Assembly (NCBI RefSeq): GCF_025685625.1
Contig: NZ_JAGSYI010000001.1
Coordinates: 620,001-684,000 of the forward strand
Length of the DNA: 64,000 bases
Source of the DNA: Acidicapsa acidisoli
GTDB taxonomy: Bacteria; Acidobacteriota; Terriglobia; Terriglobales; Acidobacteriaceae
Direction: 5' to 3'
Shown: positions 54,315 to 59,961 of the stretch, one piece after another
Layout: the number at the start of each line of letters is the position of its first letter
Numbering within the stretch: position 1 is the stretch's first letter
The notes under the pieces: generated by a model
What the model was told of the DNA's origin: nothing
The model's database searches: none
What the model saw: the letters and a program-made list of their open reading frames with translations, nothing else
Made by a program: the position numbers and the translations under genes

Positions 54315-56171
54315 GTGAGACTACGACGGTTTGTAATCGTAAATTTTAAGGCCATTCAGAGAATTGAACTTGATTTCGACGACCTACTGATTGTTATAGG
54401 TGAAAACAATTGCGGAAAGTCATGCGCTCTTTCAGCATTGTCGATATTTTTATCTGGCAGCGCCATTAAGGATACGTCACTTTTTCATCGACATCAGGCC
54501 GATGAAGCCAACGCGATAGAACTGATCGGATACTTTGATCAATTGACCGCGACTGAACAAGAGGAATCCGCTGTAAAAGGGAGAACTCTTGGAGGAGAGT
54601 GGATTCTCAGAAAGAAGTTTTGGATGACCGTTGATAGTACGGACGGTGAAGATAAGACTTCATGGAAAGAAGAGCTTTCCTCGTATTCCGCGCCCGAGAT
54701 CTTTCATTTATGGCCCCAGCCAGACACAACTTGGGCGGTCTTTGGTTCAGACTATCAGCCCCTCATTGCCCAAATCCCGGGCGCCACGGGCCGAACCAAT
54801 GCTATTAACCGCGAAATGTTGAAGCAGCTTGTTCGACAAAATCGCCCAGACCTAGTCTCTCAGGGTACACCTGCATGGCTTGCCAATCCCGGCGGTGGTG
54901 GGAACTGGAAGTCAAACGCTAATTCCATTCTGCCCCGATGCGTCTTTATTCGAGCCGTACAAGAGGCCACCGAAGAATCCCTTTCCAAGGATGCTTCGAC
55001 GTACGGCAAGCTCGTGAATCTGATAGTGGAGAATCAACTCTCGCAACGGCAGGAGATTATCGACCTTAAGAACGCACTCAACAGGGTCTTGGAACTCTTC
55101 TCTCCAGATCAAAACAATCCGGAAGGTCAAGCGCTAGAAATCAAGGAGCTTGAGAGGAAGATCAACGACGGACTGAGAGAAGTCATAGGCGGTGAAGCAC
55201 GAATTAGGACCGAAACCCCGGACGTCAACTCTTTATTGCTTCCAAATACCTCGCTTGTGATCCGGGACGTAAGCGTTGAGATAGACACAAAAATTGCGCA
55301 CCAAGGTCACGGGCTTCAGCGAACGCTGGTTATGACGCTACTCCAGATACTCGCTGAGGCACAAGAGACTTCTTTGGGAGCTATGGGCGATAAACGTGCT
55401 GTCATGCTCATAGTGGAAGAACCTGAACTCTATATGCATCCCCAGATGGAGCGGCGGATGCGAGATCTGCTTTACCGGCTATCATCCGAGCCGTCATTCC
55501 AAGTGGCCTGCTGCACCCACTCCCCTGTTTTCATTGATATCGCAAATCGGCACAAATCAATCGTAAGAATGTCTAAAGCTGCGAATGGGCATGTAAGCGT
55601 GAAGCAGGTTACTCAGGAGATTTTCGTTGGTCCCGCTGATGAGATAGAGCGCCAGCGCCTTTCGGCGGTCTCAAGATTCAATCCAAGTGTTAACGAGGTC
55701 TTCTTTTCTAATGAAGTGGTGATCATGGAAGAATTGACGGCTGTTGCGGCATTCGAGCGCGCTGCTGAAGTTACAGGGATTTTCGCAAGGCACCCGCAGA
55801 GGCGTAGAGGTGTGTCGATTATCGAGACTACTGGAAAGGGCAATATCCCCTCATTCCAGAAAGTTCTCAATGCGTTTGAAATTCCATACCGTGTTATCCA
55901 CGATGAGGACCGCAGTCAACCTCAAGCTCTGACCGAGAACCTCCGAATAGTTGCATTAGCCGGAACTCCACCGGGAAATCGACCAATCCATATGGTTGGC
56001 CCCGAAAGCATTGAAAACACCCTTGGATACGTGGCTCAGAGGGGAGCCGGCAAGCCCTACGCAGCAGTCCGAAGGGTAGAAGAACTGCACAGCCTAAACG
56101 CCCTTCCACAGCCATTCGTCGAAGCAATGAATTTCGTCTACTTCGGAACCTTAGATGAGCCACTGCTCTAG
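54315..56171 (+). CDS. OLD-family ATPase/TOPRIM nuclease (lone, atypical base composition)
   Basis: 618 residues. N-terminal SMC/RecF-type ATPase: Walker A GENNCGKS (29-36), signature HQGHGLQRTL, Walker B LIVEEPEL (Glu 368-369) and CTHSP as the H-loop. C-terminal TOPRIM domain: MEELTAVAAFERA (E472-E473) and HDEDR (D530, D532), plus IENTLGY. The usual EGxxE/D of the first TOPRIM motif is here EELTA, so one metal ligand may be lost. Start is GTG at 54315, with GGGGAG upstream. The coding sequence is clearly AT-rich against its neighbours (22 of 60 and 24 of 60 G+C in two sample lines). It has no gajB-type partner. A phage-defence or repair role is inferred. Confidence 0.88.
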   Translation: MRLRRFVIVNFKAIQRIELDFDDLLIVIGENNCGKSCALSALSIFLSGSAIKDTSLFHRHQADEANAIELIGYFDQLTATEQEESAVKGRTLGGEWILRKKFWMTVDSTDGEDKTSWKEELSSYSAPEIFHLWPQPDTTWAVFGSDYQPLIAQIPGATGRTNAINREMLKQLVRQNRPDLVSQGTPAWLANPGGGGNWKSNANSILPRCVFIRAVQEATEESLSKDASTYGKLVNLIVENQLSQRQEIIDLKNALNRVLELFSPDQNNPEGQALEIKELERKINDGLREVIGGEARIRTETPDVNSLLLPNTSLVIRDVSVEIDTKIAHQGHGLQRTLVMTLLQILAEAQETSLGAMGDKRAVMLIVEEPELYMHPQMERRMRDLLYRLSSEPSFQVACCTHSPVFIDIANRHKSIVRMSKAANGHVSVKQVTQEIFVGPADEIERQRLSAVSRFNPSVNEVFFSNEVVIMEELTAVAAFERAAEVTGIFARHPQRRRGVSIIETTGKGNIPSFQKVLNAFEIPYRVIHDEDRSQPQALTENLRIVALAGTPPGNRPIHMVGPESIENTLGYVAQRGAGKPYAAVRRVEELHSLNALPQPFVEAMNFVYFGTLDEPLL

Positions 56172-56844: not shown

Positions 56845-56873
56845 TTCACATTTCTCACAAGAATGTGTATTCT
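56845..56873 (+). promoter_or_regulatory. Promoter of the serine-biosynthesis operon
   Basis: -35 TTCACA (56845-56850), 17-bp spacer, -10 TATTCT (56868-56873). The -35 matches TTGACA at five of six positions, the -10 matches TATAAT at four of six. It is about 50 nt before the aminotransferase ATG. Confidence 0.6.
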
Positions 56874-56877
56874 GTGA
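56855..56877. promoter_or_regulatory. Palindromic candidate operator overlapping the promoter
   Basis: TCACAAGAAT, GTGT, ATTCTGTGA: the arms are complementary apart from one bulged base. It spans most of the spacer and the -10, a position where a bound repressor would block RNA polymerase. Possibly the site for the XRE domain of the SerA fusion encoded in the same operon; this is inference. Confidence 0.45.
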
Positions 56878-56923
56878 TTGCAGCCGGCGAGCAAACCCGG
56901 CCAGGTCTTTCCAAGGAGATTCC

Positions 56924-58093
56924 ATGTTCCGTAAAACCCGCCTATACACCCCCGGACCGACCCCACTGCTCCCAGCCGCCCAGTTCGCCATGGCCGCCGC
57001 GGACATCCACCACCGCACCGCCGAGTTCCGCGCCCTCTACACCAAAGTCCTCGGACAACTTAAAGAGTTCGTCGGCACCAAAAACGACGTCCTGCTCCTA
57101 GCCTGCTCCGGCACCGGAGCCATGGAAGCCTCCGTCAGCAACCTCACTTCGCCCGGCGATCGCGTCTTGGTCCTGAGCGCCGGAAAATTCGGCGAACGCT
57201 GGGTCGCCCTCGCCAAAGCCTTCGGCTGCCAGGTCGACCTCCTCACCGCCCCCTACGGCGAAACCTTTGATCTGGAGCAAGTTAAGGCCGCACTGAAGCC
57301 CGATACCAAAGCCGTCTACGTCCAGGCCACCGAAACCTCCACCGCCACCCGCCACGATGTCCAGGCCATCGCTGAAACGCTCAAAGCAGCCAATTCCGAA
57401 GCCCTCCTGATCGTCGACGCCATCACCGGCCTCGGCACCACCCACTTCGATGTAGACGCCTGGGGCGTCGACGTCCTCATCGGCGGCTCGCAAAAAGCCG
57501 TCATGGTCCCGCCCGGCCTCGCCTATCTCTCCGTCAGCGACCGCGCCTGGGCCGCCATGGAAACCAGCAAAAACCCGCGCTACTACTTCGACCTCCGCAA
57601 AGAGCGCAAATCCGCCAAGCTCGGCGAAAGCGCGTATACACCATCCGTAGCCTTGATTGCCGGCCTCGGCGCAGCATTGGACTACATCGCCGGCCAGGCT
57701 GGCGGAAACCTCGCCGAAGGCCGCATCGCCCTGATCGAAAACGCCCAGAACTGCGCCGCCATGACCCGCGCCGGACTCGTCGCTCTCGGCTTCACACTCT
57801 TCGCGCCGACTGCCCCAGCCGCCGCAGCCACAGCAGTATCTGTCCCTGAAGGCCTCGACTCCGGAGCCGTCGTCAAGGAGCTGAAAGCCCGCTTCGGTGC
57901 AGTCATCGCTAACGGCCAAGGCGAAATGAAGGGCAAGATCTTCCGCATCGCCCACCTCGGCTTCTTCGATTACATGGACACCATCGCCCTGCTCGGCGCA
58001 CTCGAACTGATCGCCCGCGACACCCTCAAGCTTCCCGTGCAATTCGGCCAGGGAGTCGCCGCCGCCCAGGAAGTCTTCGCGCAGAAGAAGTAA
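56924..58093 (+). CDS. Class V aminotransferase (alanine-glyoxylate/serine-pyruvate/phosphoserine type)
   Basis: 389 residues. PLP fold type I, class V: TPGPTPLLP near the N terminus, ACSGTGAMEASVSNL, DAITGLGTTHFD (PLP Asp), and GGSQKAVMVPPGLAYL with the Schiff-base Lys. It lies 41 nt upstream of a D-3-phosphoglycerate dehydrogenase gene. It therefore probably serves as the phosphoserine aminotransferase (or a serine-glyoxylate type enzyme) in serine synthesis; the choice cannot be made from sequence. AAGGAG lies 6 nt before the ATG. Confidence 0.93.
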   Translation: MFRKTRLYTPGPTPLLPAAQFAMAAADIHHRTAEFRALYTKVLGQLKEFVGTKNDVLLLACSGTGAMEASVSNLTSPGDRVLVLSAGKFGERWVALAKAFGCQVDLLTAPYGETFDLEQVKAALKPDTKAVYVQATETSTATRHDVQAIAETLKAANSEALLIVDAITGLGTTHFDVDAWGVDVLIGGSQKAVMVPPGLAYLSVSDRAWAAMETSKNPRYYFDLRKERKSAKLGESAYTPSVALIAGLGAALDYIAGQAGGNLAEGRIALIENAQNCAAMTRAGLVALGFTLFAPTAPAAAATAVSVPEGLDSGAVVKELKARFGAVIANGQGEMKGKIFRIAHLGFFDYMDTIALLGALELIARDTLKLPVQFGQGVAAAQEVFAQKK

Positions 58094-58097
58094 AAAC

Positions 58098-58134
58098 AGC
58101 TCCTAGCTTCTAGCTAGGAGCTAGGAGCTATTCC
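58098..58134 (+). promoter_or_regulatory. Hairpin leader with duplicated Shine-Dalgarno before the XRE-SerA gene
   Basis: AGCTCCTAGCT (58098-58108) and AGCTAGGAGCT (58112-58122) form an 11-bp stem with a 3-nt loop. The 3' arm carries an AGGAG, and a second AGGAG (58123-58127) follows just outside, 7 nt before the ATG. The 5' arm could pair with either copy, so translation may depend on folding. Confidence 0.5.
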
Positions 58135-59961
58135 ATGCCTGAACTCACTTTTGGCGAAAAACTCATCCTCGCCCGCAAGCAGTTGAACCTGTATCAGTAC
58201 CAGATGGCCGAAAAGCTTGGGGTTCACCCCAACTCCATCTGGAAATACGAGCAGGGCGAAGGCAAGCCACAGGCCTCCGTAGTGCGCATTTTCGATATGT
58301 TTTGCGAACAGAACAACCTCCGCTTCGACGAATTCTTAAGCAAAGGCCCAAAAATGAAGATCGTACTCGCTGAAAAAGTCTCGCCCGCCACATTAGCCGT
58401 CCTCGCCAGCGAGCCTGACTGGCAGATCCTCACCCATGACGACGTAGCCAAGCTCCCCGGCAAGCTGCCGGAAGCGCTCGCTGATGCTGACGCGCTCGTC
58501 GTCCGCTCTGCCGTTCAGGTTGACGATGCAATGCTCGAACACGCGCCGAAGCTCCGCGTCATCGGCCGCGCCGGTGTCGGTGTCGACAACATTGACGCTG
58601 ACGCCGCCACCCGTCGCGGCATCGTCGTGATGAACACACCCGGCGCAAACGCCATCGCCGTTGCCGAACTGACCATCGGCCTTATGCTTGCCCTCGCGCG
58701 CCAGCTTCCGCAGGCCAATGCCACCATGCACGCCGGCAAATGGGAGAAGAAGTCCCTGCAAGGCGTCGAACTGCGCGGCAAAACTCTCGGCATCCTCGGC
58801 CTAGGCCGCATTGGTCTTGAAGTCGCCAAGCGCGCGAAGGGCTTTGGCCTGGAACTCGTCGGTCACGATCCGTTTGTCTCCGCCGCCGTAGCCCGTGAGG
58901 CCGGGATCAAACTCGTCACCACGGAAGAGCTCTTCGCCGAATCAGACTACCTGACGCTGCACGTTGGCCTGACGCCGCAGACCACCGGCATCATCAACGA
59001 GCGCACGCTCGCGACGATGAAGAAGGGTATTCGCATTCTCAACTGCGCACGCGGCGAACTGATCGAAGAAACCGCGCTCGTCGCGGCGCTCAAATCCGGC
59101 CAGGTCGGCGGCGCGGCGCTCGATGTCTTCACCGTCGAACCGCCGAAAGACTCGCCCTATGCCAACCTGCCGAACGTTATTCTGACGCCGCATATCGCAG
59201 GATCGACGGCTGAGGCGCAGGAGGCCGTGGGTATTCAGATTGCACGCCAGGTTCGCGAGTATCTGAAGCTCGGCGTAGTCCAGAACGCGGTCAACGTCGC
59301 GTCACTCACGCACGAAGAGTACCTGCAGCTGGCTCCCTTCATCGATCTCGCGGGACGGCTTGGCAGCTTCCTTTCGCAGGCTGCGCCGCGCACGATTGAG
59401 AGCATTCATCTCACCTACGCGGGCGCACTCGCGGAGGGCAAAACAGATCTGGTGCGCAATGCGGCCATCGCCGGGCTGCTGTCGCAATCCGAGCATGTAA
59501 ACCGCATCAATGCGGCTACCATCGCTCAGGAGCGTGGTATCCGCATCCACGAAGAAAAGCACGAGAGCATTCGCGGCGGCGCGGCCTCGGTTCTCTCGAT
59601 TACGCTGCACGATGTGGCCGGATCGACCAAGGGATCGGCTACCGTGCTGCATGGCGAACAGCCACGACTGCTGGGCTTTGATGGCATGGACATCGAAGCG
59701 CCACTCGAAGGCAGCCTGCTGGTCTGCCGCAACCTCGACGTTCCGGGTGTAATCGGCAACATCGGCACGGTGCTTGGTCAGCAGGGAGTGAACATCGCCA
59801 ACTTCGCCCTGGGCCGCGATCGGGCGCCGCAACAGGCCGGAACCGGGCCGCTTAAGGCGCTCTCAGTGGTTCAGGTTGACGAGCCGGTTGGTCCGGAAGT
59901 TCTGGAGGCTTTGGCCAAGGTTCCGAACCTGCTTCAGGCTCGGCTTGTGCGTCTGGGATAG
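58135..59961 (+). CDS. serA: XRE helix-turn-helix domain fused to D-3-phosphoglycerate dehydrogenase
   Basis: 608 residues in one frame. Residues about 4-67 form an XRE/Cro-type HTH (FGEKLILARKQLNLYQYQMA, EKLGVHPNSIWKYEQGEGKP). Then MKIVLAEKVSPATL at residue 74 (58354) begins an ordinary SerA of about 535 residues: NAD fold LGILGLGRIGLEVAKR, NCARGELIEE (Arg), LTPHIAGSTAEAQE (His), an ASB-like domain and a C-terminal ACT domain (VPGVIGNIGTVLGQQGVNIANF). SerA oxidises 3-phosphoglycerate to 3-phosphohydroxypyruvate, the first step of serine synthesis; ACT/ASB domains often sense serine. The internal ATG at 58354 has AAAGG 6 nt upstream, so a plain SerA could also be made. Confidence 0.93.
   Translation: MPELTFGEKLILARKQLNLYQYQMAEKLGVHPNSIWKYEQGEGKPQASVVRIFDMFCEQNNLRFDEFLSKGPKMKIVLAEKVSPATLAVLASEPDWQILTHDDVAKLPGKLPEALADADALVVRSAVQVDDAMLEHAPKLRVIGRAGVGVDNIDADAATRRGIVVMNTPGANAIAVAELTIGLMLALARQLPQANATMHAGKWEKKSLQGVELRGKTLGILGLGRIGLEVAKRAKGFGLELVGHDPFVSAAVAREAGIKLVTTEELFAESDYLTLHVGLTPQTTGIINERTLATMKKGIRILNCARGELIEETALVAALKSGQVGGAALDVFTVEPPKDSPYANLPNVILTPHIAGSTAEAQEAVGIQIARQVREYLKLGVVQNAVNVASLTHEEYLQLAPFIDLAGRLGSFLSQAAPRTIESIHLTYAGALAEGKTDLVRNAAIAGLLSQSEHVNRINAATIAQERGIRIHEEKHESIRGGAASVLSITLHDVAGSTKGSATVLHGEQPRLLGFDGMDIEAPLEGSLLVCRNLDVPGVIGNIGTVLGQQGVNIANFALGRDRAPQQAGTGPLKALSVVQVDEPVGPEVLEALAKVPNLLQARLVRLG

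Follow-up and report, generated by a model that had tools for sequence, protein, structure and literature searches.

Trigger enzymes are already known, and PutA, BirA and NadR of E. coli are named as such (Commichau and Stulke 2008, as cited in PMC8249747 and PMC3602430). PutA has one regulatory target, the spacer between its own gene putA and putP, and binds nowhere else (PMC8249747). These proteins resemble the SerA fusion described here (HTH-SerA) in that an active metabolic enzyme carries a DNA-binding domain. They differ in being other enzymes, whereas HTH-SerA is a phosphoglycerate dehydrogenase (PGDH) with an XRE helix-turn-helix (HTH) head and a probable internal start for the head-less enzyme. 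The DNA-binding folds of PutA, BirA and NadR also differ from that of the XRE head.

BzdR and BoxR combine an XRE-HTH with a shikimate-kinase-like domain, and BzdR is without kinase activity (PMC3602430). The catalytic bifunctional intermediate of BzdR, the Q1 chimera, had to be built by hand (PMC3602430). HTH-SerA is similar to these regulators in its N-terminal XRE HTH, its linker, its C-terminal enzyme-derived ligand domain and the metabolic operon that it is predicted to control. Unlike BzdR, it retains all the catalytic residues and the full enzyme, the cell's sole PGDH, and is the natural equivalent of the Q1 chimera. The type-I PGDH of M. tuberculosis (SerA, 1ygy/3dc2) is a solved protein that aligns to residues 76-594 of HTH-SerA and, unlike it, has no HTH. 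None of PutA, BirA, NadR and BzdR is a PGDH, and no earlier report of a SerA-HTH fusion was found in the open-access literature searched.

Here we describe HTH-SerA from a window of 64,000 nucleotides (the whole stretch of DNA that was analysed), which is part of a 7.1-Mb assembly. The nearest named relative in the searches is Acidicapsa dinghuensis (Acidobacteriaceae). The features of the locus are collected in Table 1. A model of autoregulation by the enzyme is presented together with its alternatives.

Table 1. Features of the aminotransferase-serA locus, in positions of the window
Feature	Position	Strand	Basis
Promoter/putative operator	56845..56879	+	PWM of 74 fused loci; sigma-70-like match; genome co-occurrence
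Class-V aminotransferase, 389 aa, probable phosphoserine aminotransferase	56924..58093	+	NCBIfam, synteny
14-bp-stem hairpin over long-form Shine-Dalgarno	58098..58129	+	RNA fold; AGCTAGN heptamer repeat
AGGAG, Shine-Dalgarno of long form	58123..58127	+	Sequence; duplex energy -7.6
XRE/Cro-type HTH domain, residues 1-67	58135..58335	+	Pfam/NCBIfam, AlphaFold, Foldseek
Linker, hypervariable, low-confidence	58336..58353	+	Start-to-internal-Met distance 73-83 aa across clade
AAAGG, reduced internal Shine-Dalgarno (clade consensus AAGGGAGA)	58342..58346	+	Pairing energy, Gly codon bias
Complete type-I SerA, 535 aa, own ATG	58354..59961	+	TIGR01327, Mtb PGDH alignment, invariant columns

Domains, fold and distribution of the fused protein

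The frame at 58135-59961 is open from its ATG to its stop codon and encodes 608 aa, an XRE/Cro HTH followed by a complete type-I SerA. HTH_3 is found at residues 13-50 (Pfam, 30.4 bits against a cut-off of 23) and is followed in order by 2-Hacid_dh, 2-Hacid_dh_C, PGDH_inter and ACT. The TIGR01327 model (PGDH, type I) aligns at full length to residues 75-607 (model positions 1-525, 566 bits, with the cut-off at 454). Pfam and TIGR01327 agree with the original prediction that one uninterrupted frame joins an XRE HTH to a complete SerA with ASB-like and ACT domains.

This SerA is the only protein of the source genome above the TIGR01327 cut-off, so the gene very probably supplies the enzyme. The catalytic residues R306, E335 and H353, whose roles we take to be those assigned in E. 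coli SerA, are invariant in 67 sequences. In the same set D535 and N553 are invariant and N533 is nearly so. N533, D535 and N553 align with Y461, D463 and N481 in the ACT domain of the M. tuberculosis PGDH, which we take to be serine contacts (the E. coli equivalents are presumably H344, N346 and N364). The catalytic and serine-contact residues are intact, and the protein is predicted to be a working PGDH.

The aminotransferase 5' of serA has BhcA as its best NCBIfam model (280 of 650 bits) and falls below every cut-off. Its match to canonical SerC (TIGR01364) is 31 bits against a cut-off of 443.6. No canonical SerC above the cut-off was found in the source genome and SerB is present elsewhere in it, so this partner is the likely phosphoserine aminotransferase. 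The gene adjoins serA in the fused and in most of the unfused relatives. By operon context and the absence of another SerC it is probably a non-canonical, serC-like phosphoserine aminotransferase. A frame for a putative AAA/OLD-like ATPase-nuclease with a GENNCGKS motif is located near the operon (54315-56171).

When modelled alone (AlphaFold), the HTH adopts a four-helix XRE fold with a pLDDT of 92 and helices at residues 6-16, 21-28, 32-39 and 47-59. The full-chain model is of modest confidence (pTM 0.54), and the linker between the HTH and SerA has a pLDDT below 50. Foldseek matches of the HTH include P22 c2, 434 Cro, MqsA and C.BclI (E of ~0.01-0.03, probability 1.0). The HTH domains of these four proteins have the XRE/Cro fold in common with the head and are ~20-33% identical to it, but they belong to stand-alone regulators or antitoxins. 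Among 24 diverse members the recognition-helix region (VHxNS...KYExGEG) is wholly or almost wholly conserved. The dN/dS of the HTH is 0.00-0.09 in ungapped pairs, similar to that of SerA itself; two indel-bearing pairs (window/L020 and L018/L020) gave meaningless values and were left out. As judged by these comparisons, purifying selection on the HTH is strong.

The 73-residue head used as a query has matches in 12 of the 14 other genomes of the same genus and in two genomes of other genera (g3 and g9), and these matches always open a long reading frame. A 90-aa query across the junction gave 180 relatives in named genomes, from which 80 loci were kept. In 80/80 of them the reading frame runs from the HTH across the junction into the start of SerA. 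Some MAG sequences lose the frame after the junction (L044, L050, L063, L067 and L074) and some run off the contig end (e.g. L048). Close relatives, to which the original prediction had pointed as the place to look, keep the HTH in frame and have no stop between it and SerA.

A full-length query of 200 genomes of the family found the fused form in 8/8 g1 and 15/15 g9 genomes, and all other matches listed align from query residue 47 at the earliest, that is, without the HTH. The fusion is present in every sampled genome of g1 and g9 that is at least 90% complete, and also in g3, and it is absent from the remaining sampled Acidobacteriaceae. The carriers are a group of soil Acidobacteria, with Acidicapsa, Occallatibacter and Terracidiphilus as the named ones. 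In a SerA tree built from 72 fused proteins and 26 unfused ones, a branch with a support of 99 sets the fused SerA apart. By this tree the fusion was gained once, with no loss seen. A recent or strain-specific fusion, or an assembly error, is rejected because the trait is conserved in relatives and follows one supported branch. In the genus g44 (G066 and others) no close type-I SerA match was found at E 1e-100, unlike in nearly all genera of the family; these genomes possibly encode another PGDH type.

Most loci of unfused relatives have the same aminotransferase ~20-200 nt 5' of serA, and their serA, which has a ribosome-binding site of its own, begins at the codon equivalent to the internal ATG. 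This arrangement indicates that a short HTH frame came to lie between the aminotransferase gene and serA and was fused to the latter. A profile search for an HTH donor in 396 Acidobacteriota genomes gave strong matches in the fusions alone, in addition to three weak matches. Derivation from a known stand-alone neighbour is rejected because the strong matches are confined to the fusions.

A conserved element before the operon

The sole sigma-70-like match in the region consists of a -35 TTCACA (56845-56850), a 17-bp spacer and a -10 TATTCT (56868-56873). Four CACA/TGTG half-sites are arranged here around one dyad axis as TCACA-N5-CACA-N4-TGTG-N5-TGTGA, with an outer TCACA/TGTGA and an inner CACA/TGTG pair. 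A palindrome had been proposed at 56855-56877. It exists, but it is not the whole element; it is the right part of the symmetric 56845-56879.

The element has the form TTCACA-N4-YCACA-N4-TGTGTATTMTGTGATT across the clade and is located 44-142 nt 5' of the aminotransferase in 74 of the 75 readable fused loci. The position matrix of the 74 sites reads ATTCACA-W-AAA-YCACA-N4-TGTGTATTMTGTGATTG, and most CACA/TGTG positions are conserved in 72-74 of them. It is a single conserved block with random flanks within the 200 nt 5' of the aminotransferase in fused loci, and part of it doubles as the -35/-10. Because the half-sites share this block with the -35/-10, a bound protein would cover the promoter.

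The deepest fused lineage (L095:1735-3564 and L096) keeps the four half-sites, and TAAACT/TAAAAT replaces TATTMT between them. These two loci separate the conservation of the half-sites from that of the exact -10 sequence.

With at most one mismatch, the pattern occurs once each in 22 of the 200 genomes, all of them g1 or g9, and the fused genome G022 has the element with two mismatches. The element is present in 23/23 fused versus 0/177 unfused genomes, with a search pattern that came from the fused loci themselves; a reversed control pattern had no match in the 200 genomes. Unfused relatives with the same gene pair use a different promoter. As the fusion and the site arose on one branch, their co-occurrence is one historical event, and it is the conservation of the footprint, as the independent argument, that weighs more than the count.

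No second site was found in the source genome at up to three mismatches and none at serB, and a broad regulon is rejected on this basis. The gene 5' of the element varies, with yqeY within 700 nt in just 22 of 69 loci. An assignment of the element to the divergent yqeY is rejected because the upstream gene differs among loci. The element stays with the aminotransferase while the upstream gene changes, which assigns it to the aminotransferase-serA operon. Phylogenetic footprinting and the exact co-occurrence with the fusion strongly support the guess that the fusion protein has the palindrome as its target. The full element is a conserved candidate operator of HTH-SerA's own operon.

Signals for two translation starts

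In 80% of the loci the Shine-Dalgarno of the long form has a pairing energy of -5 kcal/mol or stronger. The 66-nt stretch that contains the hairpin over it has a predicted fold of -27 kcal/mol. Members of the AGCTAGN repeat family are found at several further places in the source genome. The gap between the aminotransferase and serA is variable across the clade, and in many fused relatives it holds this repeat.

An ATG is present at the SerA Met (58354 in the window) in 81/81 sequences, the window and the 80 loci. The linker before it is hypervariable save for AAGGGAGA at -12 to -5, which is complementary to the 16S tail. The predicted pairing of this internal Shine-Dalgarno averages -9.0 kcal/mol, whereas redrawing the synonymous codons gives -7.12 +/- 0.22 and the other in-frame ATGs give -2.5. 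Positions -9 to -7 are a glycine codon, and 75/79 sequences use GGA or GGG for it, versus 938/4086 (23%) in the SerA body; the four exceptions, with GGC, are the window, L018, L019 and L020, all of one genus. The codon bias and the pairing energy show selection on the nucleotide signal and indicate translation of plain SerA as well. Both HTH-SerA and plain SerA are probably made across the clade.

The same four sequences have a reduced internal Shine-Dalgarno, AAAGGCC, and in the window the signal is AAAGGCCCAAAA-ATG with a pairing of -4.1 kcal/mol. The short form is for this reason less certain in the window genome and may be minor there. The original prediction had raised the worry that the internal ATG could give ordinary SerA; the worry was well placed, and the Shine-Dalgarno selected across the clade makes two products likely.

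Predicted control of the aminotransferase-serA operon

We propose, at a probability of roughly 0.78, that HTH-SerA is an autoregulatory trigger enzyme that would repress the serC-like-serA operon with serine as the co-repressor and with a head-less second form. The XRE head would bind the four-half-site candidate operator overlapping the -35/-10. Repression would set in when the end-product serine suffices, through serine bound at the ACT/ASB interface, and would be relieved as serine falls. Internal initiation from its own Shine-Dalgarno would yield head-less SerA and so ample enzyme, and this form may also set the number of DNA-binding heads per PGDH oligomer. Four half-sites would fit a tetramer. 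We infer the binding of the HTH to this site, the repression, serine as the signal and the accumulation of both products; repression as the sign of control is a guess from the overlap of operator and promoter. That HTH-SerA and plain SerA co-assemble after dual initiation, so that heads and serine occupancy would together set operator binding, is a tentative extension to which we give slightly less than an even chance.

The sign and the ligand are not fixed by the sequence, and the catalytic and ACT pockets are both intact. HTH-SerA might on these grounds bind the operator and activate or fine-tune the operon, with a substrate or redox signal (3-phosphoglycerate, NADH) in place of serine. Half-sites on and between the -35 and -10 favour occlusion, however, and end-product repression suits an operon for biosynthesis and an ACT domain that binds serine, which makes this alternative unlikely. 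More doubtful still is an origin of the palindrome as the site of a different regulator, which would leave the HTH of SerA with another target or with a role in assembly or localisation. The HTH family does include non-repressor proteins, but the site and the fusion co-occur without exception in the 200 genomes, no genome carries more than one site, and the operon that follows the site encodes the fusion.

A spurious N-terminal extension is a highly improbable explanation of the HTH; in that case ordinary SerA alone would be made from ATG 58354. The conservation of the internal ATG with its Shine-Dalgarno, and the start of unfused relatives at this codon, would agree with such an explanation. 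It is rejected because the 73-83 codons before that ATG are open in frame in all kept loci with a dN/dS below 0.1. The frequent pairing of the long-form Shine-Dalgarno also argues against it, as does an XRE domain that can fold and whose recognition helix is close to invariant.

Serine biosynthesis is nearly universal. In the proposed autoregulation by HTH-SerA, a central single-copy enzyme appears to have turned into its own transcription factor across a bacterial clade, with the operator, the HTH and the internal start visible to selection. It presents a natural and testable case of an enzyme turning regulator, a route that has so far been reconstructed synthetically for BzdR (PMC3602430). 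If the two forms co-assemble, the flux enzyme, the sensor and the repressor would be one oligomer, and the fusion would be a natural intermediate between enzyme and transcription factor that has kept its catalysis. The finding also predicts gene control in the poorly studied Acidobacteria.
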